From assembly GCA_017456145.1 (NCBI GenBank), contig JAFTJZ010000037.1, positions 1-44,899 of the forward strand: DNA of 44,899 nt, in the 5' to 3' direction. Below are positions 1 through 14,464 of the stretch, piece by piece. A model generated the notes under the pieces. It ran no database searches, was not told the origin of the DNA, and saw only the letters and a list, made by a program, of their open reading frames with translations. This stretch comes from Clostridia bacterium. GTDB taxonomy: Bacteria > Bacillota > Clostridia > Oscillospirales > CAG-272. The translations under genes were made by a program, and so were the position numbers. The first letter of the stretch is position 1; each line of letters begins with the position of its first letter.

Positions 1-38
1 GCGCAAATTTCAAAAATTGGGTTGATGGAAAGTTTCAT
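1..38 (-). CDS. Small Cys/Thr-rich peptide, copy 1 (partial at window edge)
   Basis: This is the first 12 codons of a second copy of the 29-codon peptide gene at 1882-1971, and it runs off the left edge. The ATG overlaps the TGA of the 97-aa gene (ATGA), and the SD AGGAGG lies 6 nt upstream inside that gene's last codons. All visible codons equal those of copy 2 (start MKLSINPIF). Function is unknown. Whether it ends at the same place as copy 2 cannot be seen. Confidence 0.45.
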   Translation of the reverse strand, partial: MKLSINPIFEIC

Positions 39-328
39 GGTGAGCCTCCTTGCATTTTCATTTTTCGTACGCCAACAAAGCGTCTGTACCGATCATAGAG
101 CAACAGCCCAACGAGCACTATGTAGATCAGCATCAGCAACACGAAATATCCCGTCCCACGGCTGATATAGGCATACATAGTCTGCAGCTGCGTCAGGGCG
201 AGCAGCGATACGAGCTGCCGCGACGCCACATACCCGCACACAAGCGCAAGCAACAAGAGCATCAGCCAAAACGCTCTGTTGCCCCATAGCTTTTTGAGTT
301 CTCCTTTGAGAATGTGTAGGTAGGTCAT
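35..328 (-). CDS. 97-aa two-helix protein, ABC-2 permease deletion-fusion, copy 1
   Basis: The N-terminus (MTYLHILKGELKKLWGNRAF) looks like the start of an ABC-2-type permease: a basic amphipathic stretch leading into transmembrane helix 1 (about residues 18-36). The C-terminal ~56 residues are nearly identical to the end of the 797-aa permease at 7262-9655, including the last helix (about 58-78) and a basic tail. The long middle part of a permease is missing, so the gene looks like an internal deletion that stayed in frame. It follows the propeller lipoprotein gene by 27 nt and has an AAGGAGG site. Because an almost identical copy exists at 1968, it was duplicated after the deletion. It may be a stable small membrane protein or a relic. 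Confidence 0.6.
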   Translation of the reverse strand: MTYLHILKGELKKLWGNRAFWLMLLLLALVCGYVASRQLVSLLALTQLQTMYAYISRGTGYFVLLMLIYIVLVGLLLYDRYRRFVGVRKMKMQGGSP

Positions 329-355
329 GGCATAATCCCTCCTTATGTGAAGAGA

Positions 356-1597
356 TCAATCACCAACCGGCAGCTTGGAAAATGTCCATAATCCATCGTC
401 TTTCTGCGTCAAAACGCCGTAGATGTCCCCCAACCCAGTGGATTTAACGGGATGCAATACCCCGTACAAAACACCGTCAAAGCACATGACTTGATTCGCA
501 AAATAATCCGCTTCGAAATTTGTTTGCGCTCGTTCGAAATCCATCATTTTCTCTGCATCACCGCCATGAATTGATACGCGATAAAGTCCCGTTTGACGCG
601 TAGTGGTTTTTGTAGGATCACTTTCATCCAAATCATAAAGCCCGTAGTAAATATAATCACCGTCGCACCCAACGCAAACAACACCTGCGTTTTCCTGGGA
701 TACCAAAGTTTCTACCGCATTTGTCAGGATATTGTAGCTACAAATATTGCGGCTCAGCGCCTCTTTGATCGTGAATGCTCCGTCTGCATCCGTTGTTCCA
801 TATGCCATGTTGCCTACAATAAATTCACAAGTGGTCAACGCTGTTTGCGTGTAATTGGCGAATGAAGGATCGGTCAGATGAAAATAGGGACTGTCCATAT
901 AACGAACCAACACGGTGTTTCCTGCCGCATATATGCCCAGGAATGTACGCCCAGGCGGCGGTGTAATCGTTTGATAATCGCCACTCAAGGGATCAAACCG
1001 CAAAATATCACATCCTCCCTCGGCGCGGTCACGCTGCATCAGAATATAGCGATCTCCTGTAAAAATTTCACGAATGCTGTTCCCGTTGGTGGGAACAACG
1101 ATTTCAACCTCCTGCGTGTTCATATCAAAACGGTACAGTGCACCGTCCGTGTTTAGCATGGTGAAATTTTTTCCACACAGCGCATACAAATTTTGATCTG
1201 CAAGCGACCATACAAAATACCACGGCTGTGCAAAAAGCCCTGCATATCCCGTAGCGCATTCACAGTGATCGCACAAAGGATCGAAGCAGAAATAATATTC
1301 CTTTTGATTGGTTTTGTGTATGTAGGATAGATGCACGCCACCCGAGTGAATCTCCTGATCCATGACAAGAACCATACCCGGCAGATTAGAAAAGTAACGA
1401 TGTCGCCGGTAAAAAATGTGATTGTCTTCAGGAGTGAAGATATCAAAATCCAACGCCGGAGCTTCCTCGTGCTCGTCTTGTTCTTGGGGGGTCTGCCCGC
1501 CATCAGGTTCAGGCAACTTCTGCGGCATCTCGGTGGCGCAAGAAAACATAAGAACCAGTATTGACAAAATAATGAATACACTACAAAAACGTTTCAT
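356..1597 (-). CDS. Beta-propeller-like lipoprotein (DUF5050-type), paralogue 1
   Basis: The 413-aa protein has a type II signal peptide with lipobox VLMFSC, so it should be anchored outside the membrane. The body is made of short beta-rich repeats with YYFCFD, YRFDM and YRVSIHGGDAEKM motifs, as in DUF5050/propeller-like lipoproteins of Clostridia. After the first blades it carries a cysteine cluster, CFDPLCDHCEC. It is clearly related to the 412-aa protein at 2281 (same EMPQ mature N-terminus, same HSGG/HGGG region) and more distantly to those at 5294 and 11543. The SD AAGGAGA is well placed. The substrate or partner is unknown; a sensor or binding role at the envelope is an inference. Confidence 0.75.
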   Translation of the reverse strand: MKRFCSVFIILSILVLMFSCATEMPQKLPEPDGGQTPQEQDEHEEAPALDFDIFTPEDNHIFYRRHRYFSNLPGMVLVMDQEIHSGGVHLSYIHKTNQKEYYFCFDPLCDHCECATGYAGLFAQPWYFVWSLADQNLYALCGKNFTMLNTDGALYRFDMNTQEVEIVVPTNGNSIREIFTGDRYILMQRDRAEGGCDILRFDPLSGDYQTITPPPGRTFLGIYAAGNTVLVRYMDSPYFHLTDPSFANYTQTALTTCEFIVGNMAYGTTDADGAFTIKEALSRNICSYNILTNAVETLVSQENAGVVCVGCDGDYIYYGLYDLDESDPTKTTTRQTGLYRVSIHGGDAEKMMDFERAQTNFEADYFANQVMCFDGVLYGVLHPVKSTGLGDIYGVLTQKDDGLWTFSKLPVGD

Positions 1598-1654
1598 AAT
1601 CTTCTCCTTGTTTACAGGTGCAGACTCTCCTCGAAAAGATGCACCTACACCCCA

Positions 1655-1843
1655 CTAACCTGTAGTATCAGTCGGTTGGAAAACCAAAAATAGTAGTTTC
1701 AAATACGGCACTCCATTCTCATCTTTATTTGCCGCCGAGCTTGGGAAGATGCAAATGGACACCACCATTATAACGGAAAGAACAGCCGCAATGATTTTTT
1801 TACGTAAAGTTTTTTCTTCATACGTAATAAACACGAATTGCAT
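1655..1843 (-). pseudogene. Truncated small exported protein (remnant)
   Basis: The first ~25 codons match the N-terminal leader of the 182-aa exported protein at 3584-4132, including the hydrophobic signal segment, and the upstream DNA is also conserved. After the signal sequence the two proteins share nothing and this frame stops after 62 codons. It sits between the small peptide gene and a propeller lipoprotein gene, the slot that the 182-aa gene fills in the next cassette. It is most simply a decayed or deleted copy. The leader shows the same reading-frame oddity as its paralogue (see findings). Confidence 0.55.
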
Positions 1844-1881
1844 CCGATTCTTACACGTTTTTCATAGAGTTTACGAATTGT

Positions 1882-1971
1882 TTACATTTCCGGTACTTTG
1901 CAACAGGTGTGGGTAATGGTGGCGGTGCCGGCCGCGCAAATTTCAAAAATTGGGTTGATGGAAAGTTTCAT
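1882..1971 (-). CDS. Small Cys/Thr-rich peptide, copy 2 (29 aa)
   Basis: A 29-codon ORF opens with MKLSINPIF and ends with KVPEM. Cysteines are at 12, 23 and 24 and threonines at 16, 18, 20 and 22. Its ATG overlaps the stop codon of the 97-aa membrane-protein gene (ATGA), and the perfect SD AGGAGG lies 6 nt upstream, so translational coupling is likely. The stop TAA lies in the upstream region of the next small exported gene. The C/T-rich second half recalls modified peptides, and KVPEM recalls the tail of AgrD-type pheromones, but the leader is very short and no modification or AgrB-like gene is in the window. A truncated N-terminus of a lost larger gene is the main alternative. No function is assigned. 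Confidence 0.45.
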   Translation of the reverse strand: MKLSINPIFEICAAGTATITHTCCKVPEM

Positions 1972-2262
1972 GGTGAGCCTCCTTGCATTTTCATTTTTCG
2001 TACGCCAACAAAGCGTCTGTACCGATCATAGAGCAACAGCCCAACGAGCACTGTGTAGATCAGCATCAGCAACACGAAATATCCCGTCCCACGGCTGATA
2101 TAGGCATACATAGTCTGCAGCTGCGTCAGGGCAAGCAGCGATACGAGCTGCCGCGCCGCCACGCACCCGCACACAAGCGCAAGCAACAAGAGCAGCAGTA
2201 AAAACGCTCTGTTGCCCCATAGCTTTTTGAGTTCTCCTTTGAGAATGTGTAGGTAGGTCATG
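1934..2262. repeat. Long direct repeat, copy 2
   Basis: Second copy of the 329-bp repeat at 1-329. Differences cluster in the first-helix and junction part of the 97-aa gene. The copies are separated by 1933 bp, so the whole unit of exported gene, propeller gene and 97-aa gene behaves as a tandem duplication. Confidence 0.9.
1968..2261 (-). CDS. 97-aa two-helix protein, ABC-2 permease deletion-fusion, copy 2
   Basis: It is nearly identical to the protein at 35-328, with changes mainly in helix 1 and the junction (WLML to LLLL, GYVAS to GCVAA). Two predicted membrane helices flank the segment LVSLLALTQLQTMYAYISRG, which matches the end of the 797-aa permease. Both copies keep an open frame, and several differences are missense. 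The start has the SD GGAGGAG 6 nt upstream and lies 19 nt after the propeller lipoprotein gene. The stop overlaps the start of the 29-aa peptide. It may assemble with another permease, or be a relic carried by the duplication. Confidence 0.6.
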   Translation of the reverse strand: MTYLHILKGELKKLWGNRAFLLLLLLLALVCGCVAARQLVSLLALTQLQTMYAYISRGTGYFVLLMLIYTVLVGLLLYDRYRRFVGVRKMKMQGGSP

Positions 2263-2280
2263 TTGGGCTCCTCCGTGCAA

Positions 2281-3519
2281 TTAGTTATCTCCCTCCTTTA
2301 GGGTGGAAAATACCCATTCTCCATTTTCGCTCATAGTAATCGTTCCGTACATCTCTACGAATTTTCCCGGCGTATCGCAGCGGACGTTACAATATACCAC
2401 GCCGTCATAGCACGCTGCCCAATACACGTACAGATCATCTGCCCTGCCGGTATGTGCAGCCGAAAAATCGATCATCGGTTCTGCCTTACCGCCGTCGGTG
2501 GAAACACGGTATAGGATATTTCCGCAATGCTCAACCTGCGTTTCATCTTCCTTAGCGATGGGGTTGAGAATAAAGTAAACGTACCCTCCACCGTAGCCAA
2601 CCACGCGAACGTTGAGATCATCGTAAGAAAGTAGGGTTTGAATTTCACCCGTGTCAACACGAATGGTTTGAATGCTTCGTGCCGAGGTTTCCCACACTAC
2701 CGGCTCGCCGTCAGCCGACGCCGCACTCACTACCACATTTTGGTCAAGATACAGAAATTTTCGGGGCAGCTCCGTAGCGCGGTATTCCGAAAAATTGCGA
2801 TCTGTCTGATACAGCGTAGGGTCGTCCATAAAGGAAACCAAGATGACTTCTCCACTGACACGCAGCAGCTTGAATGCGCGCCCCTCGGGGGCTTGTATCG
2901 ATAGAACCTCTCCGCTTTGCGGATGATAGCGTAAAATTTCGTAACCGCCCGTCTGTAGCTTGCGCGTTACAAATATATCGCTCTCGCTTGCATATAACCG
3001 GGAAAGCGGTTCCCCATTACTGTCGATCACTCTTTTGGCAACCATGGTGTCCATATCGACCCTGTATAGAACACCGTCATTCGGCGCGCGATTCTCAGGA
3101 TCGGACACAATCGCTGTAGCATATAAACAGCCGTCCGAAGGTGACCAAATAACATTCTCAATGTAGCATAAAGGCCCGTTGTAGCCAAACAGACAGCTTG
3201 TGTGGTTACACAGTGCATCAAAACAGAAAAAATATTCCTTCAAATCGGCCTTGTTTACATAGCTCATGTGCATTCCGCCGCCGTGAGCCTCTTGATCATT
3301 GAGAAGCACCATGCCGGGGATATTACAAAAGTACGGCGTGATATAGGAGTAGACCATGCTCTCTTCGGGTGTAAAGATAGATCTATCGATCGGCGCGGCA
3401 TGTTCGATTTTCTCATCACTATGCTCAAAGCCGCTGTCTTGGGGCATTTCATGAGCACAAGAAAGAAATAGCGATATTCCGATAATGATAGCTAAAAAGG
3501 CTATGATTCTTTTTTGCAT
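2281..3519 (-). CDS. Beta-propeller-like lipoprotein (DUF5050-type), paralogue 2
   Basis: This 412-aa lipoprotein has lipobox SLFLSC followed by AHEMPQ. Repeated beta-strand motifs (YRVDMDTM, LRYHPQSGEV, YRVSTDGGKAEPM) suggest a propeller of short blades. The cysteine cluster reads CFDALCNHTSC. It is the closest relative of the 413-aa protein at 356 and shares its overall length. The gene follows a 34-bp perfect palindrome and precedes the 97-aa membrane-protein gene. No catalytic motif is visible, so a ligand-binding or scaffolding role outside the cell is an inference from family and context. Confidence 0.75.
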   Translation of the reverse strand: MQKRIIAFLAIIIGISLFLSCAHEMPQDSGFEHSDEKIEHAAPIDRSIFTPEESMVYSYITPYFCNIPGMVLLNDQEAHGGGMHMSYVNKADLKEYFFCFDALCNHTSCLFGYNGPLCYIENVIWSPSDGCLYATAIVSDPENRAPNDGVLYRVDMDTMVAKRVIDSNGEPLSRLYASESDIFVTRKLQTGGYEILRYHPQSGEVLSIQAPEGRAFKLLRVSGEVILVSFMDDPTLYQTDRNFSEYRATELPRKFLYLDQNVVVSAASADGEPVVWETSARSIQTIRVDTGEIQTLLSYDDLNVRVVGYGGGYVYFILNPIAKEDETQVEHCGNILYRVSTDGGKAEPMIDFSAAHTGRADDLYVYWAACYDGVVYCNVRCDTPGKFVEMYGTITMSENGEWVFSTLKEGDN

Positions 3520-3541
3520 AAATTTCTCCTATTTCTTCTCC

Positions 3542-3575
3542 CCCCATGGAAAAGGCATATGCCTTTTCCATGGGG
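3542..3575 (-). other. Perfect palindrome, intergenic RNA hairpin A
   Basis: A 34-bp perfect palindrome has outer arm CCCCATGG, inner arm AAAAGG and the centre CATATG. It lies between the 182-aa exported gene and the propeller gene, both transcribed leftward. No T-run follows on the transcribed strand, so it is not a normal intrinsic terminator. Its twin is at 6541-6574 at the same position in the neighbouring cassette. It could stabilise or process the mRNA, attenuate transcription, or bind a protein. Confidence 0.8.
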
Positions 3576-3583
3576 ATGATCAA

Positions 3584-4132
3584 TTATTCGTATCCATAAA
3601 TCAGGAAATCGTCAACAATGTATTTTGTACATGTGTGCTGTATCTCACCGTAATTCGGTTTCACAGAAGTCTCACCAATATTATAATCGAAATATGTGAA
3701 AATTCTTTGTAACAAACCTATTTTTGACATATCGTAGTTAATACTAATAGTGATCGAATATAATGAATCTCCTTCATCCATCCAAGCATACCCAGAAGTT
3801 TCTTCCCTATCCGTGATACCAATGTAACAGTTTCTTGCTGTAATATACCAAGCTACATTCATAGACATATCCTCATCATCCATCACAAGATAAGAATAGG
3901 CCTCTTGCCTTTTGTTCGATACCGTTCGTGCCCCATATGACTCACAATAAGAATGGAATGTCACACCGCCTACAACATAAGTACGATAATGCCATGTCGG
4001 ATTATACTCAACATTTTCAGCAGCCATAGCATTTACTGCAAACATCGGCACCAACATCAAAACGGAAAGAACAGCCGCAATGATTTTTGTGCGTAAAGTT
4101 TTTTCTTCATACGTAATAAACACGAATTGCAT
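3584..4132 (-). CDS. Small exported protein, unknown function (182 aa)
   Basis: The frame from ATG at 4132 encodes an odd 16-residue N-region (MQFVFITYEEKTLRTK), a hydrophobic signal segment and a likely cleavage at NAMA-AEN. The mature part is rich in Tyr and Thr and has no motif I recognise. An ATG at the GTATGAAG site would give a classical MKKK signal-peptide start but is in the +1 frame across an A6 run. The upstream 60 bp and leader are conserved with the remnant at 1655-1843. The gene precedes a propeller lipoprotein gene, as do the other two small exported genes, so the two products may act together. Confidence 0.6.
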   Translation of the reverse strand: MQFVFITYEEKTLRTKIIAAVLSVLMLVPMFAVNAMAAENVEYNPTWHYRTYVVGGVTFHSYCESYGARTVSNKRQEAYSYLVMDDEDMSMNVAWYITARNCYIGITDREETSGYAWMDEGDSLYSITISINYDMSKIGLLQRIFTYFDYNIGETSVKPNYGEIQHTCTKYIVDDFLIYGYE

Positions 4133-4190
4133 CCGATTCTTACATGCTTTTCACTGAATTTACGAATTGTTTACACTTTTTTAGATGACC

Positions 4191-5279
4191 TTATTTTTCA
4201 AGCAGCGCCTCCACATACGCCGCATCGACCCACATCGCGGGGCGGACGCCGTTATACGCATCGGCTCTCTCCATGTTTAAGCCGAGTCCGGTCGTCGCTG
4301 CATATTTGTTGTTTACGTTACCCGCCATACGCAGCCAATAGTTTACCGATTCCACACCATACGCGTTTCCGATGCGCGTATTTTCTTTGACACGTGCTCG
4401 CACGTAGTCAGTCATAAGTCCGGGACAGTTTTCTTTGGCTTGCAACCTGTAAAGGTCATCTGCGCACAAGGCAAAAATATAATCATCGGTCTTGACATCA
4501 TTCAGTGTTGTTAAGCGAATATTACCGCGTTCACTATCGTCAAACGCAAATTCGTAAAATGTACCATTCAGCCAGGTGCGCAGTGCTGAATTTTTCCATT
4601 CCGCGTATTGATTGAAATCATTTTGACTGAGCAACTCCAGCACATATCGACTCACCAAAAAATATGCGCTGCCATCCGCATTTTTGTCCAGCACCAACCA
4701 CTCAATTGGTTCAGTACCGTTAGCACTATTGTTATCTTGCTCGTAGTGACCGAAGGAGATCGTTGTTCCTACGGGAAAGACTGCCCAGCGCGCTTCCAGC
4801 TCATATGCGCCATCTGTCTGCCAAATGCCGCTATCCGCATCGCGATTCATTCCCCAAAACCAACCAAGAAAGTCATATCCTTCTCGTTCAGGTACAGGGA
4901 GCGTATATTCTTCTCCGTATGTTACGGGAAATGTTAGCTTTTCATCGGTTCCGTCATTTATGTACAGCGTCAGCTCGTACGATTTAGGCTCTCTGCAATA
5001 TTTGAGGGTGATATCAGATTCGACCATGTCCAAATTAAAATCCCACGCGCGCTCCACACCGTTTTCCTCAATGAACCAACCGACGTTGTTATGTCCGATG
5101 ATCAGAGCCGGTTCTTCCGGTTTAGATACATATCCGCCGGAAGCTATAGTCTGTGTTTCCACGCGAGCAAGATAATCGTAATCCAGCGTTACGGTATAAG
5201 TTGTCACTTCTTGCGGCGCGGCCTCGCAGCTGCACAGTAGCATGATATACAATGCAAGCGAAAAAACGATGCGTTTCAT
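4191..5279 (-). CDS. InlB-repeat plus DUF6273 lipoprotein, paralogue 1
   Basis: A signal peptide ends in the lipobox MLLCSC. Two InlB/Flg_new-type repeats follow (TYTVTLDYDYL ... GWFIEENG, then LTLYINDGT ... GYDFLGWFWG). The C-terminal half is a DUF6273 domain: FGHYEQ, PIEWLVLDKNADGSAYFLVSRYV, LRTWLNGTFY and the terminal GVRPAMWVDAAYVEALL. I place the start at ATG 5279 because GGGAGGT lies just upstream; an ATG 18 nt further up has no SD. The start is 14 nt after the propeller gene at 5294, so the two are co-transcribed. DUF6273 is common in surface proteins of gut Clostridia; its role is unknown to me. Confidence 0.8.
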   Translation of the reverse strand: MKRIVFSLALYIMLLCSCEAAPQEVTTYTVTLDYDYLARVETQTIASGGYVSKPEEPALIIGHNNVGWFIEENGVERAWDFNLDMVESDITLKYCREPKSYELTLYINDGTDEKLTFPVTYGEEYTLPVPEREGYDFLGWFWGMNRDADSGIWQTDGAYELEARWAVFPVGTTISFGHYEQDNNSANGTEPIEWLVLDKNADGSAYFLVSRYVLELLSQNDFNQYAEWKNSALRTWLNGTFYEFAFDDSERGNIRLTTLNDVKTDDYIFALCADDLYRLQAKENCPGLMTDYVRARVKENTRIGNAYGVESVNYWLRMAGNVNNKYAATTGLGLNMERADAYNGVRPAMWVDAAYVEALLEK

Positions 5280-5293
5280 AGATACCTCCCAGT

Positions 5294-6508
5294 TCATTTT
5301 CTCTTATCGACAATTGATGTTGGGCGAATAATCTCTCCCGTATCAAAATGAATCTCTGCAAAAAAAGGTTGACCAAATTTATTCGCTTTGAAATCAAATT
5401 CAAAAATCCACCCGTATAATACACCATCGAGTACAGTATAATGATTAATAAAATCCAATGTGTGTGTTTCATCCGTATACACTGCGCGTACATTACCACC
5501 GTCGTGGTCACACGCATACAACGTTGACGATCCAAGCAAATATTTTGCGCCCTCCGGATCGGTAGGTGCATATATTTCCGGATCGTTTACCTGCCTGAAC
5601 TCTACGGGCGAGTAATAAACAGCATCATCACAGAGGCGATATGTCAACACTGGCACATCCACCAAATATCTCCATTCCCCTGTTTTCGTGTTCATAATGA
5701 TTAATCGCAATTGTTGTGTTGGCTGTCCATTAGGCGCTGCAATCAAACTGTTTTCCGGCTTAACTTGAAAATATAACATACCATCCAAATACTGAAGTTC
5801 GGAAACACCCAAGAAACCTGCTTCCTCTAAAGATAGTAATTTTGTCTGCTCCCATGTGGTTGTATCAATTCGATAAAAAGAACCTTCCCATGTTGTTAGC
5901 ATCATTCCACCTGTGAGGACTCGCAGTGTTTCACTGTTTCCACGCAGTTCGTATACTTTTTCACTATTACCTCCTTCCAGTGAGACACGACAAACAAAAG
6001 AGTGGTAGTCATTTGGCAGGTCAGGGTTGCCTCCGTCTTTAAGATATTTCCGAGTATAATAAACATATTCGTCCTCTACAAACATCGCATTATTGGGGGT
6101 AATGTTATCATATCCAACCTCAAAAAGAACCTCAATTTCGCCTGTTAGTAGATTCTTTGCGCAATAATACCGTTTCTGGGCCACCCTTCCCTCAAAAACA
6201 AAATAGAAAATACTATTTTTTATTGCTTTAGGCTGCATGCTCCCTTTGTGGAAAATACAGCTTTGATTACATTCAAGATTCTCACAAAGCCCATACACCA
6301 GTTCTCCCGTAATACGATCATAAGTCGCATCGTTCCATTTGTTGATGACGTAATTTCCCCAGCATACAGAAGCATATGTCGGCATTCCAATGACGCGAGA
6401 CTCCAAGACTTCAAAAGAGAGGTTTTCGGGGATACGTTCAGCACAGGAAGACAACATACACAGAAATAAAACAAGCAAAAAAATCAGTATACATTTATTA
6501 TTTCGCAT
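5294..6508 (-). CDS. Beta-propeller-like lipoprotein (DUF5050-type), paralogue 3
   Basis: The 404-aa protein has lipobox MLSSC. Blade-like repeats include YRIDTTTWEQTKLLSL, YYSPVEF and LYACDHDGGNVRAVYTD. The cysteine cluster is CENLECNQSC, spaced like that of the other paralogues. It is closer to the 391-aa protein at 11543 than to those at 356 and 2281: both share ASVCWGNYV/SAVCWNQYV, TGEWRYLVDVPV/SGTWHEMVDVPV and a C-terminal FAEI...IIP block. It is followed closely by a DUF6273 lipoprotein, the same pairing as in the 9698-12718 operon. Confidence 0.75.
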   Translation of the reverse strand: MRNNKCILIFLLVLFLCMLSSCAERIPENLSFEVLESRVIGMPTYASVCWGNYVINKWNDATYDRITGELVYGLCENLECNQSCIFHKGSMQPKAIKNSIFYFVFEGRVAQKRYYCAKNLLTGEIEVLFEVGYDNITPNNAMFVEDEYVYYTRKYLKDGGNPDLPNDYHSFVCRVSLEGGNSEKVYELRGNSETLRVLTGGMMLTTWEGSFYRIDTTTWEQTKLLSLEEAGFLGVSELQYLDGMLYFQVKPENSLIAAPNGQPTQQLRLIIMNTKTGEWRYLVDVPVLTYRLCDDAVYYSPVEFRQVNDPEIYAPTDPEGAKYLLGSSTLYACDHDGGNVRAVYTDETHTLDFINHYTVLDGVLYGWIFEFDFKANKFGQPFFAEIHFDTGEIIRPTSIVDKRK

Positions 6509-6540
6509 AATTAACTCCGTTTAAATATGGTATCGAGGTG

Positions 6541-6574
6541 TCCCCGAGAAAGGGCATATGCCTTTTCTCGGGGA
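6541..6574 (-). other. Intergenic RNA hairpin B
   Basis: This inverted repeat has a stem of outer TCCCCGAG and inner AAA around the same GGCATATGCC centre as hairpin A, with one mismatch. The outer stem differs from hairpin A on both arms, so pairing is kept by compensatory change. It lies between the small exported gene at 6614 and the propeller gene at 5294. No T-run follows. Confidence 0.75.
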
Positions 6575-6613
6575 TGTGCCTTTTGTAGTTAATAAGGACA
6601 ACGAATCTGTTGT

Positions 6614-7078
6614 TTAATCATAATATCTCATTGTCCAGCCTGCCTGCCCGGGTGTCCAATATCTCTCGTTATATTCGTGCCAACTTTGACCGCCGGCTGT
6701 TGCCGCAAAATCAAAAGCGACCCATGCTTCAGCCGGAGAATAAATTTCTTCATATGTGAAATCATATAAATCCTCAAAATATCTTGCGTTATCGTGCGTA
6801 GAAGAATATCCTATTACATCCCAGAAATATTCACGATCATCATCTTCCGCCGAAAAACCCAACATAAATTCAGTTTTGTGCGTGTCTAAATACCCACCCA
6901 GACAATCAGCAGCTACTGCAATATTTCCATCATGGACATTACTGTTATTCCAAGTTCCGGTAAAGCTGTAATAACCGTATGTTTTCACCGTAGAACCGTC
7001 CCCTGTATTTAGATATTGTTCATTAAAATACGAATAGGTTCTATCTACGGTACGGCGCACCGCAAACGACGGCAACAC
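6614..7078 (-). pseudogene. Small exported protein, start region lost (154 aa)
   Basis: The longest frame starts at GTG 7078, inside what is clearly the hydrophobic core of a signal peptide. Reading upstream in frame gives ASLVFVALCLIVGSVLPSFA, but a TAA lies directly before it and no ATG is available. Thus the charged N-region and start codon seem to be missing or frame-shifted. The mature part is Tyr/Asp/Glu-rich (YSYFNEQYLN, WTPGQAGWTMRYYD) with no recognised domain. It occupies the same slot before a propeller lipoprotein gene as the 182-aa gene. Either it is a recent pseudogene or it starts at an unusual site. Confidence 0.5.
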
Positions 7079-7168
7079 GCTACCTACGATAAGGCAAAGA
7101 GCTACGAAAACGAGGGATGCTTATGAAGGCTGTCAACCGCTCTCATATATAGTGTAATTTGGAAGGGT

Positions 7169-7188
7169 AAATCTATCGCTTTTTGAAA
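7169..7188 (-). promoter_or_regulatory. Shared GATAGATTT motif B
   Basis: On the minus strand this reads TTTCAAAAAGCGATAGATTT, about 90 nt upstream of the 154-aa exported frame. The same core is found upstream of the 12718 operon and twice upstream of the anti-sigma gene. It may be an ECF-sigma promoter element or operator. Confidence 0.35.
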
Positions 7189-7231
7189 AATTTATTCATA
7201 ATTTTTTGCATAATAGTATTCTTGGTTCATT

Positions 7232-7258
7232 ATATCACGAAAGTATGTTTCATGATAT
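7232..7258 (-). other. Inverted repeat after the permease gene
   Basis: Arms of 11 bp (ATATCATGAAA and its partner, one mismatch) enclose a 5-nt loop just after the permease stop codon. There is no T-run, so termination here is possible but not shown. Confidence 0.35.
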
Positions 7259-7261
7259 ACC

Positions 7262-9655
7262 TTAAATCTTCATGCTTCGCACGCCAACAAAGCGTCTGTA
7301 CCGATCATAGAGCAACAGCCCAACGAGCACTGTGTAGATCAGCATCAGCAACACGAAATATCCCGTCCCACGGCTGATATAGGCATACATAGTCTGCGGC
7401 TGCGTCAGGGCGAGCAGCGCAAGCTCCTGCGGGAAGTGGGCAAGCAGTGCGTAAAGCAGCGCGGGAATACCGACCAGCACCACCATTCCGCTCAAGGTCG
7501 GCAGCTTGTGACGCAGCGCGGCGGACAGCGCACAGAACAGATATCCCAGCAGTGCCCCGACCAGCGCCGAGAGTATAAAGTCAAGCAAGAGATAATCGCC
7601 CAGTGTCATGGTCATGGGCGTGACGGAAAGCTCTCGGACGCTGTAGAGATACGTATCGAGATCGGTCATCTCAAAGCCGTGACGAATGGTGAAATAATCG
7701 CAAAGACGAAAGGCAAAGGAGACACACGCACAGAGGGGCACACAGGCCCAAAGCTTGGCGCAGAAGGTTCGCTCCCGCCCCCGCCGCGTGCTGCGCAAAA
7801 TGGCCGAAAAGCCGCTTTGCGAACCTTTTTCGGAATATTCGATGGTAAAGATGCCATAACACAGAGCGATCAGAGCAATCAGAAGAAAGACATCCATGTC
7901 GCGAGTGAAATAGTGGTTATAGCCCGTGTCGTAGATGATCTTTGCCTGTGCGCCGGTGGCTTTGTTGCCGCGGTGAACCATCTCAACGTACTGCTGTACC
8001 TCCTCAAAGATGCTCTCCTCGGATATGGCAGCGTGATAAAGCTCCATATAAGCAAAATATTCTTCGCTTTCTATATGACCGTACCAACGAGAAGTTTGCA
8101 CCGTATCATACTGTTCCAAAATATCATCAAGACGGGCACGCTCGGCGACAAGATACGCCTCCTGCTCCTCCGTGCTCAGTGGCTGCAGCTCGGATATATA
8201 GGTGCGGTAACGGGTCTGGAAGTAGTTTTGCATATTACCGACATCGTCTGCGACGAATGCGCACTTGAGATACAGAAGTGCGGCAATGACCAGCAGCAGC
8301 GCCGCAAGGTGAATTTTTTTCCATTCATACGGCACCAGTGCAACGGAATATTGCCAATATCGCCGTGTGCGGCGGGCGGCGGTGCGCTCGGCCCGACGAG
8401 TCAGATGTGCTCGGCTCTTCTGAATACCGCCTGCCAGCGTCGCACCAAGTCGCTTGACCCGTCCTGCGAGCGAGCGCAGATTTTTGCTGTAGAGAACCAC
8501 ACCGCAGATGGCAAAGACGACACACAAGAGGAGCGCAAGGCAGACCAAGAACGTGATCTGATTGACGCAGATGCCAAAGAGAGAGACCGTACGGAAAAAA
8601 CTCAGCGGTGTCGCGCCGTCAAACAGAGAGATCATATTCAGATAACGGATGGGAGGCGCGGTGCCAAGATACGTCGCCGCCCAGATTGCATACTGCGCAC
8701 CGACCACGGCACCGCCGCCAAGGAAACAGCCGATATAGGGCAGCTTGAGCGCGGCAAGGGCGGCGCAGAGCAGCGTATACGTCAGATAGCCCAGCAGCCG
8801 CAAAAGAGTATGTACGACAAGATATAGAGCGATACTCCGGGCAAAGGGCACCGTTTCGCAGCCCTCAACCAGGCGAATGTCCGCCCACGGAGAGGAAAAT
8901 CCACAGCGGATGCCGACCGCCAGCGCCGCCGTACCAAAAAACAGCAGCGAGACGGCAAGGCTGCTCCCCGCAACGGTAAACATTTTAGCAAGCGCCGTCT
9001 GTCCCCGCCCCTTGACGGTGGCATGGGTCAGCGGACGGGTGCCAAGGCTGTCCTCGGACAAGAACAGGTAAGCAATCATGGCACTCAGAAACACCAGCAA
9101 AAGCACCCCCGTCGCCGTGCTGCTTGACAGATATTGATCGTAGCCATAGGTATAATCGTCGCCGCGGGAATCCTGCTCCAGCAAGGTGGTATAGGTCTCA
9201 ATCAACTGTCTGCGGGAGACGATGGAAAAGTGATCCTCCCGGTAGCCGTAGTCCAACAGGCGATTGAGCTGCCGCTGCGACGTGCCGATGATGGTGTGCA
9301 TCCGTTCCTCATAACCGTCGACCACCTCGGCATAGTTTAGCGCCGCGCCGAGCAGCCGCGAGTCATCGTACGGACTCTCGGGGAAATAGGTCTTGGGCAT
9401 CTCGGGGTCCTCTTCCTTGTTTGCGCTGGCACGAATGGCGTTGAAATAGTATTCATCCAGTTTCTTCTTGTACTCTCGCGTTCCCTCGGGATCCTCTCGC
9501 ACCATTTCGTAGACCGCCATTTCATAGTCCTTGGCGGGCAGGGGAACCGTGTTAAAATACACCACCCCGAAGTTGATCAAAATGAGGCTGACCAACAGCC
9601 GGATCAAAACGCGGGATGAAAACAATTTCTTCATTTCAAAACGATACAACTGCAT
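7262..9655 (-). CDS. ABC-2-type permease, two tandem halves (797 aa)
   Basis: The protein has two homologous-looking halves. Each starts with a basic segment and one membrane helix (MKKLFSSRVLIRLL; YEWKKIHLAALLLV), then a large extracytoplasmic loop of about 150 residues rich in Glu, Asp and Tyr, then about five helices. This is the layout of fused ABC-2/BcrB-like export permeases, which need a separate ATPase; none is in the window. SD AGGAGG is 6 nt before ATG 9655. The gene ends the run that starts at 12718, 42 nt after a DUF6273 lipoprotein gene. The last ~50 codons are the source, or a sister, of the sequence in the 97-aa genes. Exporting or sensing a cell-envelope compound together with the lipoproteins is an inference. 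Confidence 0.8.
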   Translation of the reverse strand: MQLYRFEMKKLFSSRVLIRLLVSLILINFGVVYFNTVPLPAKDYEMAVYEMVREDPEGTREYKKKLDEYYFNAIRASANKEEDPEMPKTYFPESPYDDSRLLGAALNYAEVVDGYEERMHTIIGTSQRQLNRLLDYGYREDHFSIVSRRQLIETYTTLLEQDSRGDDYTYGYDQYLSSSTATGVLLLVFLSAMIAYLFLSEDSLGTRPLTHATVKGRGQTALAKMFTVAGSSLAVSLLFFGTAALAVGIRCGFSSPWADIRLVEGCETVPFARSIALYLVVHTLLRLLGYLTYTLLCAALAALKLPYIGCFLGGGAVVGAQYAIWAATYLGTAPPIRYLNMISLFDGATPLSFFRTVSLFGICVNQITFLVCLALLLCVVFAICGVVLYSKNLRSLAGRVKRLGATLAGGIQKSRAHLTRRAERTAARRTRRYWQYSVALVPYEWKKIHLAALLLVIAALLYLKCAFVADDVGNMQNYFQTRYRTYISELQPLSTEEQEAYLVAERARLDDILEQYDTVQTSRWYGHIESEEYFAYMELYHAAISEESIFEEVQQYVEMVHRGNKATGAQAKIIYDTGYNHYFTRDMDVFLLIALIALCYGIFTIEYSEKGSQSGFSAILRSTRRGRERTFCAKLWACVPLCACVSFAFRLCDYFTIRHGFEMTDLDTYLYSVRELSVTPMTMTLGDYLLLDFILSALVGALLGYLFCALSAALRHKLPTLSGMVVLVGIPALLYALLAHFPQELALLALTQPQTMYAYISRGTGYFVLLMLIYTVLVGLLLYDRYRRFVGVRSMKI
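7271..7419. repeat. Third, partial copy of the permease-end repeat
   Basis: This stretch encodes the end of the 797-aa permease and aligns closely with about 59-207 and 1992-2140 of the long repeats. Similarity ends at the motif AGCAGCG, which marks the deletion junction in the 97-aa genes. Confidence 0.8.
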
Positions 9656-9697
9656 AGGCAGCCTCCTGAGTGTTCTTTTTGATTTTTACGTCTGTTT

Positions 9698-10825
9698 TTA
9701 TTTATTTATCAAAGCATCCACATATTCTGCATCCACCCACATCGCAGGACGGACGCCGGCGTATGATTTTCCCATCACAGCATGATAATTGCTGCCGGAG
9801 GTTGTTATCTCATAACTGTTATAATCCTTGGCATACCGCACCCAATATCCGTAAGATTTGTAGGAATCCAATTGTCCACGATCTTCGGCAGGGTGGACAT
9901 CTTCTTTTTTCGCCGTGCTATCCGTCATCATGCCCACGCGATACTCATTACTTGCAAGAAACCGAAGCTCCTCAAGACTCAACAGAAAAACGCGATCGCT
10001 CGTCCCGACATCCTCAAGGTACGTCAATCGGATATGCGCACGCGCCTCGTCATCAAACGCACCATTGTAGAAAACACCGTTGAGCCACGTGCGCAGCTCC
10101 CGCTTTTCCCAAGCCATGGCGGTGTAATCATCTCCCGAATGAAACGGCATCCACTCCAGCAAATATCGGCTGACCAAAAAGTACGCGCTGCCGTCCTCAC
10201 TCTTGTCCACCACCAGCCATTCGATGGGTTCTTTCCCGTTTTGTGCGTCTCCGTCCTGCTGATATTCACCAAAGAACACCTTGGTGTCGGGCGACACGTC
10301 AGACCATAAGGCGAGGTACACCGTGTTAACCGTTTCTCCATTCTCTGCAATTACGGTCATATCATGATCTGTATCCCATCCAAGGAAGGTATGTCCCTCC
10401 CACGTTGGGACAGGCAGCGTATCATTTGTCCCATATTTCACCTGACTGATCTCAACGCGATCTGTCCCGTCGTTATAGACCAATGCATACGAATAGACAG
10501 ACACCTGTTCCTCTCGCAGAATTTTCAAAGTCAGATCCTCGGTAACAACATCAACCGTAAAATCCCACTGCCGCCACTGTCCGTTTTCCTGCACGAACCA
10601 GCCCAGGTTTTCAAATCCCACTTTGCCTGGCGTGTGGGAGGGTGGCTCGACCAATTCACCCTTTGGGACCGTCTGCGTCTCGACCTGACCGAGATAATCA
10701 TAATCCAGTGTGACGGTATATGTAGTTTTTTCTCCCTCTCCATTCCGATCCGCCGCCACCTCGCAGGAGCAGACAAGCACACATACAAGCAGCAGTGTAC
10801 TTATCATATATCGAATCCTTTTCAT
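9698..10825 (-). CDS. InlB-repeat plus DUF6273 lipoprotein, paralogue 2
   Basis: The 375-aa protein has lipobox VLVCSC, then two InlB-type repeats (TYTVTLDYDYLGQVETQT...; YALVYNDGT...HTFLGWDTD) and a DUF6273 domain (FGEYQQDGDAQNGKEPIEWL, LRTWLNGVFY, YAGVRPAMWVDAEYVDAL). It is collinear with the protein at 4191 over its whole length. SD GGAGGT is 8 nt before the ATG. It stands between a short DUF6273 gene and the ABC-2 permease gene and is probably co-transcribed with both. Surface binding is likely; no ligand can be named. Confidence 0.82.
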   Translation of the reverse strand: MKRIRYMISTLLLVCVLVCSCEVAADRNGEGEKTTYTVTLDYDYLGQVETQTVPKGELVEPPSHTPGKVGFENLGWFVQENGQWRQWDFTVDVVTEDLTLKILREEQVSVYSYALVYNDGTDRVEISQVKYGTNDTLPVPTWEGHTFLGWDTDHDMTVIAENGETVNTVYLALWSDVSPDTKVFFGEYQQDGDAQNGKEPIEWLVVDKSEDGSAYFLVSRYLLEWMPFHSGDDYTAMAWEKRELRTWLNGVFYNGAFDDEARAHIRLTYLEDVGTSDRVFLLSLEELRFLASNEYRVGMMTDSTAKKEDVHPAEDRGQLDSYKSYGYWVRYAKDYNSYEITTSGSNYHAVMGKSYAGVRPAMWVDAEYVDALINK

Positions 10826-10868
10826 CCTTTTTACCTCCGTGTTTGATCCTCTCTTATACCATGCGGTT

Positions 10869-11546
10869 TCATTCTACTCCCTGCATAAGCCGCGCCTCCA
10901 CATACGCCGCATCGACCCACATCGCGGGGCGGACACCGGCGGGGATATAGTCACTGCTTTGAGGCAAGGCTTCTACCCCGGTACACGTATAGCATTTATA
11001 AATACCCGTTGGGACTCCGCGCAGGAAATATGCGTAAGATACGTATCCGTCAAATTTACTGGTAGCGCCCACCGTTTGATTGCCGCGCATGACTGCCGCA
11101 TAAGACGTCAAAAAGCCCGATCTCTGTGTGCGGGGTACCATGAGCGCAACCTCATCTTCGTTCAAAGAAAAGACTCGCTGCGTTTGACCAACGTCTGCAA
11201 GATAGGTGGATAAAATAGATGTCTGCTCCTCTGAGGAAAAAGCTGCAGGATAAAATGTATCGCTCAAAAAAGCGGGAACATCGTCCTCTGTTCCTTGCGC
11301 CGGGCCAAAAGCACGCCAATCTAAAATGTAACGACTGGTCAAAAGATATGCACTGCCGTCTGCTTTTTTGTCGATGACCCACCACTTCTCTATTGTCCCT
11401 CCCACCATGACTTCTATGGTTTCCGTTTGCGACAAATCATCGTGGTCCAACGTCACCGTGTAGGTTGCTGCCTTTTCACCTTGGCACGCACTAAGCACCG
11501 ACAGGGATATAGCAGTGAGTAACGCGAAAATTACCGTTCTTTTCAT
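10869..11546 (-). CDS. DUF6273 lipoprotein with internal deletion, paralogue 3
   Basis: The 225-aa protein has lipobox VLSAC and the beginning of the first InlB repeat (TYTVTLDHDDLSQTETIEV). It then jumps directly from GGTIEK into the DUF6273 part at WWVIDKKADGSAYLLTSRYI, omitting about 120 residues present in its two paralogues. The end, GVRPAMWVDAAYVEARL, is intact. The ATG overlaps the stop of the upstream propeller gene by four bases, so the two are coupled. The frame is open, so the shortened protein may be made. Confidence 0.75.
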   Translation of the reverse strand: MKRTVIFALLTAISLSVLSACQGEKAATYTVTLDHDDLSQTETIEVMVGGTIEKWWVIDKKADGSAYLLTSRYILDWRAFGPAQGTEDDVPAFLSDTFYPAAFSSEEQTSILSTYLADVGQTQRVFSLNEDEVALMVPRTQRSGFLTSYAAVMRGNQTVGATSKFDGYVSYAYFLRGVPTGIYKCYTCTGVEALPQSSDYIPAGVRPAMWVDAAYVEARLMQGVE

Positions 11547-12718
11547 TTGTTTACCACCGTCGCGGGAATGATCTCATCGGTCTTTGTGCGGATCTCGGCA
11601 AAATAGGATTCGGTATACGCCTGTGTCTCGGGGTCATATTCACGTATCCATGCGTAAATGATGCCATCCACAACGGCATAATAGTCGGAATAATCGAGCC
11701 GTCCGCTCTTATCCGTCCAGATCGGGCGAATGTTCCCGCCGTCAAGGTCACAGGCGTACAGTGTGGCGGAGACCGATGCATACGTCGGATGGTCGCTGTC
11801 CGCACCACCGATCAGACGATCCTCGCAAGGCAGAAAATACACCGTATCCTGCTCGATATAATAGTTTGCCACGGGCACGTCAACCATCTCGTGCCACGTG
11901 CCGCTTGCAACGTCGATGGTGATGACCATTTGGAGGGTAGTATTGTACGAATAATAGCCGAACAGAAGAATCCTTCCGTCCACGTAATCCATGCGCACAA
12001 CAGAGCGTATCGGGGCATCCTCCAAAGAGGCCAGTGTGGTCTGCTTTCCGCTTGCGATCTTGATCTGCAGAAGGACATCATCGCTCATGGTATACATATT
12101 GCCGTCCTTGATCAGATACGGCACCTTTGCATGGTCAATCGTGTAGACCTGCTCGCTCTCGCCGCCCTCGACGGGAATGCGGCAGATGGCAATGCCGTAG
12201 CTCGTCCCACCTGTTTGCAGGGGGACGTTAACGCCGCGGGTATAATACATCCAGCCGTTGTCAACGAAGATCGCCGACCCTGCTCTGTCCTTGTAATCAA
12301 TGCACACCAGCTCCATGATCTGACCGCTCTGCAGATCATAGCTGCAATAGCGGATTCCTTCTCGCGCTGAACGCCGCAGGGTAAAATAGACCTTACCGTC
12401 CGCAACGGTCTCCACACGGAGGATGCTCCTCTCCAGATAACAATCGCCCTCGCAGGTTTCGTCGGTGCAAAAATCATCGCGCACCTCGCCCGTGGCGCGG
12501 TTGTATATCGTGCCGCCCGAGGTCACGACGTATTGGTTCCAGCAAACGGCGCTCTGATATTGCATGACGTTGGTCGTCGGCTCATGGGCATAACGAACGC
12601 TGTCGTCGGGCGGCGCTGCGATCTCATCGGCGCAGCCGTACAGAGCCGCGCTCAGCAAAAGCTGGACGCAGGCAAGCAAAATGATAAATAGGCGATTGGG
12701 TTTACAAAATTTTTTCAT
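11543..12718 (-). CDS. Beta-propeller-like lipoprotein (DUF5050-type), paralogue 4
   Basis: The first gene of the leftward operon encodes a 391-aa lipoprotein with lipobox ALYGC. Blade-like motifs include YNRATGEVRDDFC, CSYDLQSGQIMEL, CRIPVEGGESEQVYTID and LYACDLDGGNIRPIWTDKSG. The cysteine cluster is CTDETCEGDC. It is most like the 404-aa protein at 5294. SD AAAGGAG precedes the ATG, and a GATAGATTT motif lies about 53 nt upstream, facing the divergent ECF sigma gene. It is probably the best conserved, least rearranged member of the set. Confidence 0.78.
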   Translation of the reverse strand: MKKFCKPNRLFIILLACVQLLLSAALYGCADEIAAPPDDSVRYAHEPTTNVMQYQSAVCWNQYVVTSGGTIYNRATGEVRDDFCTDETCEGDCYLERSILRVETVADGKVYFTLRRSAREGIRYCSYDLQSGQIMELVCIDYKDRAGSAIFVDNGWMYYTRGVNVPLQTGGTSYGIAICRIPVEGGESEQVYTIDHAKVPYLIKDGNMYTMSDDVLLQIKIASGKQTTLASLEDAPIRSVVRMDYVDGRILLFGYYSYNTTLQMVITIDVASGTWHEMVDVPVANYYIEQDTVYFLPCEDRLIGGADSDHPTYASVSATLYACDLDGGNIRPIWTDKSGRLDYSDYYAVVDGIIYAWIREYDPETQAYTESYFAEIRTKTDEIIPATVVNK

Positions 12719-12770: not shown

Positions 12771-12783
12771 AAAATCTATCACC
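12771..12783 (-). promoter_or_regulatory. Shared GATAGATTT motif A
   Basis: Read on the minus strand as GGTGATAGATTTT, preceded by CGGGAAA. It lies 53 nt before the first gene of the leftward lipoprotein/permease operon. The same core recurs at 7169 and twice at 13484-13533. It is a candidate target of the adjacent ECF factor. Confidence 0.4.
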
Positions 12784-12873: not shown

Positions 12874-12903
12874 CTTGACAAGCCGTCAAGGTTATGGTAT
12901 GAT
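12874..12903 (+). promoter_or_regulatory. Sigma-A-type promoter of the ECF sigma gene, with dyad over -35
   Basis: TTGACA (12875-12880), a 17-bp spacer and TATGAT (12898-12903) lie about 45 nt upstream of the ECF sigma gene. A dyad CTTGAC-N5-GTCAAG at 12874-12890 overlaps the -35 box and could be an operator. Confidence 0.65.
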
Positions 12904-12950: not shown

Positions 12951-13487
12951 ATGGAAAAACACACCGAAATCACCGCGGATGAGGCATTCAGTCTGTACTA
13001 CAAGAGTATTTACAACTACATACTGTCTCATCTGCGCGGCGACAGTTATCTTGCCGAGGATATCGCAAGTGATGTTTTTGCCATTCTGTATCACAAGTGG
13101 GAGAGCATCCGCCCCAAAACGAATGCGGTCATCGCCGCATGGCTGTTTGAGACGGCAAGAAACGTCCTGAGAAATCATCACCACGCGCACACGCGCGCAC
13201 CGATCATTCTGTCACTGGATGACATGGTCGACCTGATCTGCCCTGAGGAAGACAACGCCGCCGCGCAGGTTGCCAATGATCTGAATTACCACCGGCTGCT
13301 CCAACAACTTCGCGCCTCCCTATCCGCCCGAGATCGCGCGTTTTTCGATGCTATGTACATTGAGGAGCTCTCTGTGACCGCCTTGGCACAAAGGTTCAAC
13401 ATCAAGCCGGAGCAGGTCTACGTCCGCCGATCTCGTCTCAATCGCCGTCTGCGGACCATCATTTCAAAAAAATTTCAAAAAAAGTGA
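12951..13487 (+). CDS. ECF-type RNA polymerase sigma factor
   Basis: The 178-aa protein has sigma region 2 at about residues 10-80 (AFSLYYKSIYNYILSHL, YLAEDIASDVFAILYHKW, AAWLFETARNVLRNHHH). Region 4 is at about 110-172, with the helix-turn-helix ELSVTALAQRFNIKPEQVYVRRSRL. There is no region 1.1 or 3, as expected for ECF factors. It directs core polymerase to a small regulon. It is divergent from the lipoprotein/permease operon at 12718 and is followed by an anti-sigma-like gene, so the array is the natural candidate regulon. Its last codons overlap the first copy of a 39-bp tandem repeat. Confidence 0.85.
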   Translation: MEKHTEITADEAFSLYYKSIYNYILSHLRGDSYLAEDIASDVFAILYHKWESIRPKTNAVIAAWLFETARNVLRNHHHAHTRAPIILSLDDMVDLICPEEDNAAAQVANDLNYHRLLQQLRASLSARDRAFFDAMYIEELSVTALAQRFNIKPEQVYVRRSRLNRRLRTIISKKFQKK

Positions 13488-13549
13488 TAGATTTTCTTCA
13501 CGCATGACATATTTCAAAAAAAGTGATAGATTTTCTTCACGCATGACAT
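13472..13549 (+). repeat. Perfect 39-bp tandem duplication
   Basis: Two identical 39-bp units (13472-13510 and 13511-13549) begin inside the last codons of the sigma gene. Each holds AAAGTGATAGATTTTC, the motif also found upstream of two array operons, and a short dyad GTGA...TTCAC. The repeat lies directly upstream of the anti-sigma gene and could double a regulatory site. Confidence 0.9.
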
Positions 13550-13606
13550 TATTCATATGAGCAATGCGCGCTCGGCAAACCAACGCAGAAAGGAGAACGC
13601 GAGAAC

Positions 13607-14464
13607 ATGGAGCAGCATCCCGATATCCAACAAATCCGACAGCAGCTCCGCACCCTGTCTGTCGAGGAACAGATACAATATCTCAACGGCATCATCGACG
13701 CCGAGCTGGACAAATCTCCGAGCGAGCGTGACATCGGATCGATCGATGCCCTCTCCGCGTTGCTCCGTCAAGTCACGGCAGGCACGGCATATGATGTGTC
13801 CGATGTCAAGCTTATGCAAATGCGGGCATATACGAAAAAGAAAGCACGCAGGATGGGCAAGCCTATGCATTCCCATACCTCTTGTCAGCGCGTTACCCGA
13901 CGCAGCCGATTTGCCGTCGCCGCAGCCGCGTTCCTTTTGGTCTTTGCCATTTCACTGCCCGTTGCGGCACACGCAGGCGGCTTTGGAACGCTTGGCGAGC
14001 TGATTGCCTACGTTGCCCGTTATCTGGAGCCGGGCGAGAAACTCGAATCGAACGGCATCACCATCATCAAGGGCGAGGAGCCGATGAAATACGAGAGCAT
14101 TGAGACGTTTTTACAGAAAACGGGCTCTGACGTTGCCTGTCCGACAGCATTGCCGCAGGGCGTCGGCATCCGGGAGGTGCTCACACTGGGAGATCTTCGC
14201 ACCGTACCGCAAAGTGACGTTATCTTCGTGTTTGAAGATCAGCGTTACAGCCTGACGGTCAGCAATTACTTCTGGTGGGATGATCCGGAGCTGATCTGTA
14301 TGCGTTACCGCTGTACTACCTATCAAGCACCGATCGGAACGGCATACGTCTTCGCGCTTGAGGACGTATATCAGGCGGTTTTGCACTGCGGGGAATATGA
14401 ATATACCCTCTGTGCACCAAGCTATACGGCACTTTTGTCTTTGCTTGACGGCTTACAAGCCTGA
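13607..14464 (+). CDS. Anti-sigma-like membrane protein with DUF4367-type C-terminus
   Basis: The 285-aa protein has a cytoplasmic N-terminal region of about 100 residues, rich in charged helices and able to bind the sigma factor. One membrane helix follows at about 104-124 (FAVAAAAFLLVFAISLPVAA), then an extracytoplasmic domain with YESIETFLQKTG and DDPELICMRYRC that resembles the DUF4367 family. No zinc-binding HXXXCXXC motif is visible. SD AAAGGAG is about 10 nt upstream. Its position 3' of the ECF gene makes it the likely anti-sigma factor, sensing an envelope signal. It ends at a strong terminator. Confidence 0.72.
   Translation: MEQHPDIQQIRQQLRTLSVEEQIQYLNGIIDAELDKSPSERDIGSIDALSALLRQVTAGTAYDVSDVKLMQMRAYTKKKARRMGKPMHSHTSCQRVTRRSRFAVAAAAFLLVFAISLPVAAHAGGFGTLGELIAYVARYLEPGEKLESNGITIIKGEEPMKYESIETFLQKTGSDVACPTALPQGVGIREVLTLGDLRTVPQSDVIFVFEDQRYSLTVSNYFWWDDPELICMRYRCTTYQAPIGTAYVFALEDVYQAVLHCGEYEYTLCAPSYTALLSLLDGLQA

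Follow-up and report, generated by a model that had tools for sequence, protein, structure and literature searches.

A candidate cell-envelope module under an extracytoplasmic function sigma factor, apparently expanded in tandem, in a Clostridia bacterium

The stretch of DNA analysed here, called the window throughout, is a whole contig of 44,899 nucleotides (C42) from the draft genome of a Clostridia bacterium (2.92 Mb in 117 contigs, completeness 95.38, contamination 7.49), and window base 1 is the first base of that contig. Positions 1-12718 carry an array of genes for surface lipoproteins, small exported proteins and permeases of the ABC (ATP-binding cassette)-2 type, all on the minus strand and beside a divergent gene pair for an extracytoplasmic function (ECF) sigma factor and its probable anti-sigma factor. 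From comparison of sequences we read this array, with about even confidence, as an ECF-controlled cell-envelope module that was expanded in tandem in this lineage.

Promoter-like motifs of the array and the sigma/anti-sigma pair

The sigma/anti-sigma pair and the putative promoters of the locus are as follows.

12951..13487, plus strand: ECF sigma factor, 178 residues (Pfam Sigma70_r2, 3e-9; NCBIfam sigma70-ECF, 3.9e-18)
13607..14464, plus strand: probable anti-sigma factor, 285 residues (position; one membrane segment by eye; homologues beside ECF genes)
12772..12782, minus strand: motif GTGATAGATTT before the first array gene (genome motif scan, promoter comparison)
13484..13494, plus strand: motif GTGATAGATTT upstream of the anti-sigma gene, first copy (genome motif scan)
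13523..13533, plus strand: motif GTGATAGATTT upstream of the anti-sigma gene, second copy (in a 43-bp tandem duplicate)
7169..7179, minus strand: motif GCGATAGATTT before the exported/propeller unit within the array (genome motif scan, promoter comparison)
12875..12903, plus strand: TTGACA-17-TATGAT, a promoter-like site of sigma-A type upstream of the ECF gene (11/12 matches)

The pattern GYGATAGATTT occurs four times in the 2.92-Mb genome and each time in this locus, with two copies upstream of the anti-sigma gene and one each upstream of the first array gene and of the internal exported/propeller unit; the reversed pattern, taken as control, does not occur. Promoters were compared without gaps and each comparison was set against 60 shuffles. 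The promoters of the array and of the anti-sigma gene are alike over 50 nt with none of the 60 shuffles as good, and the same holds for the anti-sigma and internal-unit promoters (0/60), while the upstream regions of the ECF and anti-sigma genes have no motif in common (17/60). The doubling of the motif before the anti-sigma gene goes along with a 43-bp direct repeat (97.7% identical) at window positions 13472-13553. The closest relative of the ECF factor (39% identical, genome G055) has GATAGATTTT in its divergent promoter (0/60 shuffles). For a genome of another genus (G117) the promoters of array and anti-sigma gene likewise share a motif, though a different one (0/60 shuffles): TTTGTGA-N(14-16)-CGACGT is found four times in that genome, three times in the ECF locus with a 14-base gap and once on another contig with a 15-base gap. 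In the locus the anti-sigma gene and two propeller-like genes each have one such site upstream, and that of the second propeller-like gene played no part in building the pattern. Confinement of the motif to the locus, together with the same wiring in this one other genus, supports a linkage of the array to the ECF factor. A likeness between the regions upstream of the anti-sigma genes in the window and in L076 was discarded, as the similarity falls in the ends of the ECF genes.

The sigma factor itself is of the ECF type by NCBIfam sigma70-ECF (65.6 bits, cut-off 42.9, residues 10-169) and Pfam region 2 (37 bits, cut-off 24), with r4_2 reaching only 17.8 bits (cut-off 25.7). The product of 13607-14464 matches no family of Pfam or NCBIfam above cut-off, known anti-sigma domains included; its position, its single membrane segment and its homologues, which adjoin ECF genes in L074, L076, L090 and L120, make it a probable anti-sigma factor. 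On the 3' side of this gene lies one for a large secreted protein of 1141 residues (14597-18022), glycosidase-like by eye.

Composition of the array and its continuation on a second contig

The genes of the array are listed from the ECF side; types A and B are our own labels for two groups of propeller-like lipoproteins that separate in a tree.

11543..12718, minus strand: propeller-like lipoprotein, type A (DUF5050 below cut-off; tree)
10869..11546, minus strand: DUF6273 lipoprotein, InlB-type repeats deleted (Pfam)
9698..10825, minus strand: InlB-repeat/DUF6273 lipoprotein (Pfam)
7262..9655, minus strand: full ABC-2 type permease, 797 residues (permease family adjoins ABC ATPases in relatives)
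6614..7120, minus strand: exported-family protein, no in-frame start codon for the signal sequence (reading frames; profile match)
5294..6508, minus strand: propeller-like lipoprotein, type A (DUF5050 30 bits, cut-off 27)
4191..5297, minus strand: InlB-repeat/DUF6273 lipoprotein (4-bp overlap with the preceding gene; Pfam)
3584..4132, minus strand: small exported protein, complete frame (open reading frame)
2281..3519, minus strand: propeller-like lipoprotein, type B (tree; no Pfam match)
1968..2261, minus strand: permease stub reduced to the first and last membrane segments (sequence comparison)
1882..1971, minus strand: ATPase-start remnant, a frame of 29 residues with MKLSIN as its first (overlaps the stub by 4 bp, like the intact pair on C57)
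1655..1843, minus strand: truncated exported protein, signal sequence retained (open reading frame)
356..1597, minus strand: propeller-like lipoprotein, type B (DUF5050 below cut-off; tree)
35..328, minus strand: permease stub, 97.3% DNA identity to 1968-2261 (repeat comparison)
1..38, minus strand: ATPase-start remnant, cut by the contig end (sequence comparison)

Read along the minus strand, the array runs from a type-A propeller through an internally deleted and a further DUF6273 gene to the full permease, continues with the start-less exported gene, a type-A propeller, a DUF6273 gene, an exported gene and a type-B propeller, and ends with a permease stub, a truncated exported gene, a type-B propeller and a second stub. 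The unit of exported gene, propeller and either DUF6273 gene or permease stub is seen three times in the order of transcription. The original prediction, made from the letters of the window, had described this inventory (four propellers, three DUF6273 genes, three exported genes and three permease-derived genes on one strand next to a divergent ECF pair), a repeated order of paralogues and copies in differing states; the open reading frames lie where it had placed them, the order recurs as given above, and the states are those of the start-less exported gene, the internally deleted DUF6273 gene and the permease stubs.

Searches of the same genome with the permease and one propeller led to contig C57, where the array is found again, in the same strand orientation, over the last 23 kb (C57:39704-62523). 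This part holds three type-A and six type-B propellers, a propeller fragment, one DUF6273 gene and one further lipoprotein-like frame, together with two full permeases, a half permease, two stubs and an intact ABC ATPase gene (C57:53202-54113); at least one gene in it lies on the opposite strand (L020 8565-9140, flavin-reductase-like by eye). The end of C57 is in the register of window base 1916 and the start of C42 in that of repeat base 1934, and since the ends share the repeat register and the orientation, the two contigs are probably neighbours. Together they hold three full permeases and one ATPase as against 13 intact propeller-type lipoproteins, and all four DUF6273 matches of the genome fall within them. 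The window itself lacks the ATPase, as the original prediction had said, and has only remnants of its start; the leftward extension proposed there as a check would, with C57 as the probable neighbour, yield about 23 kb more of array along with the intact ATPase. Elsewhere in this genome, contig C32 carries on one strand a tandem series of six lipoprotein-like genes that closely resemble one another, each coding for about 280 residues (L022:1060-6185).

The 797-residue permease matches no Pfam or NCBIfam family above cut-off, the Pfam ABC-2 membrane family included, and by sequence no solved structure at E 5; the half permease on C57 reaches PF12730 at E 0.028 only, below cut-off. The ATPase on C57 is an ABC ATPase by ABC_tran (4.8e-28), and its gene, which overlaps that of the half permease by 4 bp, provides the permease-associated ATPase that the window lacks. 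Among NCBIfam models and PDB neighbours it is nearest to the GldA/DrrA and ABCA types, and with 114 bits against a cut-off of 309.75 for the lantibiotic-protection model it stays below an assignment to the LanFEG/BcrAB type. Of the envelope-response system originally proposed, the linkage to the ECF factor and the ABC-2 exporter context (through this ATPase) are supported, and a response to envelope stress is conjectural. Each stub in the window is followed by a short frame beginning MKLSIN, which agrees with the first part of the C57 ATPase gene in 25 of 26 bases. Between stub and remnant there is a 4-bp overlap, the arrangement also seen for the half permease and the ATPase on C57, so that the stubs appear to be permease-ATPase pairs with an internal deletion. 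An identical internal junction is found in both window stubs and in one stub on C57, and the fourth stub (L020 12776-12955) ends otherwise.

A separate observation concerns the N-terminus of the permease family. Of 30 permeases examined, some partial ones having been left out, 10 begin with about 40-50 additional residues that include a box like IGxIDDKW (L077, L079, L081:15097-17613, L082, L083, L084, L085, L088, L118 and L122:5535-6782). An ECF-like gene lies directly upstream in these 10 (L118 having only a weak match where its contig starts); among the 20 permeases without the box, not one has such a gene directly upstream on its own strand.

Divergent lipoproteins between near-identical linkers

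The segments between the lipoprotein genes tell of a different age than the genes. Window positions 1-329 and 1934-2262 are 97.6% identical, and further repeats pair 1760-1889 with 4049-4179 (91.6%) and 48-207 with 7260-7419 (95%). Against the 97.6% of these linkers, the neighbouring lipoproteins are 35% identical; similarly, the synonymous divergence (dS) between the two window stubs is 0.04, whereas the type-B lipoproteins beside them have a nonsynonymous divergence (dN) of 0.65 and a saturated dS. The linkers, near-identical between diverged lipoproteins, therefore appear to have been copied or homogenised recently, and the neighbouring lipoproteins, too divergent and saturated in dS, not to be recent duplicates. 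Of the original claim that surface parts diversify by duplication and deletion, the duplication of cassettes with deletions is supported, and duplication as a means of diversification is conjectural. A more far-reaching reading takes the linkers as points of recombination at which old lipoprotein genes, long diverged, are exchanged into and out of one expressed array, part of an undescribed ECF-controlled surface system in which the small secreted protein, the propeller and lectin-like lipoprotein partners and the ABC-2 exporter would form one unit; we regard it as unlikely. Two other repeats were seen in the window, a pair of stretches about 1.7 kb apart with pieces that are 75-98% alike (26680-27132 and 28396-28854) and a tandem repeat of about 100 bp at its right end (44601-44899).

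DUF6273 is above the Pfam cut-off in all three of the window proteins named after it and the Listeria-Bacteroides repeat in two of the three, the repeat part of 10869-11546 having been lost through internal deletion. DUF5050, which we take to be a propeller family, is above cut-off in one of four window lipoproteins (5294-6508) and below it in 356-1597 and 11543-12718, and the Pfam search gave no DUF5050 match for 2281-3519; on account of this family and of the likeness among the copies all four are called propeller-like, and a propeller profile found by sequence no relative among solved structures at E 1. The type-A copies of this genome are 32-42% identical among themselves, the type-B copies 23-63%. 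Five type-A copies form one clade (support 96/92) with a copy from G004, of the same genus, as sister (100/100), suggesting an older multiplication of the type-A lipoproteins within this lineage; for type B only one relative was sampled and the branch of this genome is weak. All 13 propeller lipoproteins compared have a full reading frame and, by eye, a lipobox cysteine (a simple pattern script picked the wrong cysteine in two), and the nearest pair, with dN 0.28 and dS 1.96, fits purifying selection, its dS being near saturation.

Could the array instead be a decaying tract of tandem duplications, in which a few lipoproteins and one exporter matter and the rest is debris of unequal crossing-over with a meaningless copy number? 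The permease stubs, the ATPase remnants, the start-less and truncated exported genes, the deleted DUF6273 gene and the propeller fragment on C57 are what such decay would leave behind. However, the intact frames of 13 of 13 propellers and the low dN of the closest pair relative to its nearly saturated dS speak against it, and the loss has fallen mainly on permease, ATPase and exported genes, which renders this explanation doubtful. It has also to be considered that assembly or binning stacked or mixed strain variants of one short array, as 117 contigs, a contamination of 7.49% and contig ends inside a repeat might suggest. Yet the repeats of C42 are resolved with different lipoproteins between them, the DUF6273 matches are confined to C42 and C57, and similar modules exist at loci of relatives, making an artefact of this kind very unlikely.

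The small exported protein was followed with a profile made from the proteins of four relatives, all found in module loci. This profile matches the start-less gene from 6632 to 7120 at E 4.2e-9 and gives six strong matches in 5 of 295 genomes of the family, consisting of its own four rows, one protein in G022 and the start-less gene. Both new members are directly beside a type-A lipoprotein, as are three of the four rows, the fourth having a DUF6273 gene between. The complete window copy (3584-4132) is not recovered and is at best a weak member of the family, and 11 weaker matches were left out as they cover only the N-terminal part of the model, the signal-sequence region. The protein belongs to no known family of Pfam or NCBIfam, and the profile has by sequence a single, chance-level match among solved structures (E 0.54). 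A lactococcin-972-like bacteriocin was considered for six proteins and dropped, with no Pfam or NCBIfam match to E 10 in a search whose HMMER filters drop most weak matches. The exported protein might be an effector or signal, with lipoproteins and exporter protecting the producer or processing the protein. The place of the two new members beside type-A lipoproteins and the lack of a known family would suit such a secreted-protein system, but only these two matches are independent, the four rows having come from module loci; moreover, strong matches in 5/295 genomes stand against 63/295 for the permease, most modules seen have no exported protein, and the profile misses the complete copy. We consider this system distinctly unlikely.

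One study reports that diversity-generating retroelements of gut phages target DUF6273 domains, the models of which are similar to C-type lectins (PMC10743442). A surface display diversified by such an element acting on DUF6273 was nevertheless rejected and its probability put close to nil, as this genome, so far as it is assembled, has no match to the reverse transcriptase family RVT_1 and 3 of 14 control genomes do.

Relatives, known systems and implications

Counting this genome in, the ECF factor is found in 1 of 6 genomes of the genus (E 1e-8), 9 of 295 of the family (1e-12) and 1 of 394 in a sample of the order, this genome (1e-20); an alignment scan of genome contigs gave two loci, G055:C30 and a weak Parabacteroides match. 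The permease family is far wider, with 63 of the 295 family genomes (E 1e-20) and 30 of 71 genera. By reading, two further modules of this genome have ECF genes of their own (C85 and C58) and others have none. Eighteen permease loci from 17 other genomes were picked by hand from the permease matches, mostly the strongest; that of G280 was picked for a nearby ECF match, G278 also had one, and a nineteenth locus, L076, chosen on its ECF gene alone, was left out of the count. An ECF-like gene is next to or near the permease in 11 of the 18, some of these calls being weak, at 21 to 35 bits for a profile built on three sequences of this genome, and four of the weak ones having been read as translations. 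Seven loci have no ECF match, three of them (L071, L078 and L080) being cut by contig ends on the upstream side. These seven go part of the way towards what the original prediction had named as its refutation, relatives that have such genes scattered without the sigma/anti-sigma pair. In G055, three ECF/partner pairs stand in a row, each separated by a gene pair on the opposite strand (L115:5459-19119, G055:C107).

Several points weigh against an ECF-controlled, tandemly expanded module. The sites on which the pattern GYGATAGATTT was built had been picked out by eye, so that its only test is that no others occur in the genome, and the distance from it to a possible -10 element, again by eye, varies among the sites. 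Taken alone, the first array and the internal promoter are not significantly alike (11/60 shuffles), and sigma-A type sites are not in excess in the region (two found, shuffle mean 1.3). The array promoters of the window and of G117 are not alike (35/60 shuffles), so the two cases rest on different motifs, and in two further loci with a divergent ECF gene, L074 (6/60 shuffles) and L075 (16/60), no shared promoter reached significance. The closest relative of the ECF factor, in G055, faces what by its translation looks like an FtsX-type ABC transporter and not this module; the other five genomes of the genus have no homologue of the ECF factor, though G004 has the module at a contig edge; and the adjacency of C42 and C57 is a probable one, read from their ends.

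Under control by the ECF factor, the locus could work as follows. The factor would be made at a basal rate and bound by the membrane anti-sigma protein until an envelope signal releases it; once freed, it would transcribe the array and its own anti-sigma gene, and the resulting negative feedback would shut the response off. The promoters predicted to respond are those with GATAGATTT. At the surface the lipoproteins may catch a ligand, most likely an antimicrobial or other surface-active compound, which the exporter would remove or handle, and unequal recombination between the near-identical linkers would multiply lipoprotein genes and delete parts of permease and ATPase.

Sigma/anti-sigma pairs of the ECF type with a linked target operon are a known class. 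The window resembles such pairs, as far as partial descriptions go, in having a gene for a probable membrane anti-sigma factor directly behind the ECF gene and in a target promoter common with the former (PMC7406223, PMC8999054); it differs in an ECF gene that has a sigma-A type site without the shared motif and in an anti-sigma protein that matches no known domain family. With ABC-2 exporters that use an ATPase of the GldA/DrrA/lantibiotic-protection type, the genes on C57 share such an ATPase and a permease overlapping by 4 bp, but here the permease of about 800 residues is without a Pfam or NCBIfam match above cut-off, the ATPase is below the NCBIfam cut-offs of these models, and there are several lipoproteins per transporter. 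ECF257 neighbourhoods contain ABC transporters, like the ECF gene here, but in an excerpt of the source ECF257 is listed among the ECFs without a cognate anti-sigma factor (PMC8999054), a comparison made by description only. A limited search of the open-licence PubMed Central literature found no description of this set, its array form or the contrast between linkers and lipoproteins, which agrees with the original statement that no described system has exactly this set; since a core module of lipoproteins, large permease and ATPase, in many cases with an ECF gene, is met repeatedly in the family, a system of this kind is not unique, and the parts are of known kinds.

The analysis assigns to an orphan ECF/anti-sigma pair a proposed regulon and a motif by which targets can be predicted, and would tie DUF5050-like and DUF6273 lipoproteins, a family of 800-residue permeases and a family of small exported proteins into one module across the family. 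The contrast in identity between linkers and genes makes recombination between surface cassettes testable, and the permeases with an IGxIDDKW box directly after ECF-like genes suggest that in these relatives the transporter may itself be the anti-sigma factor.

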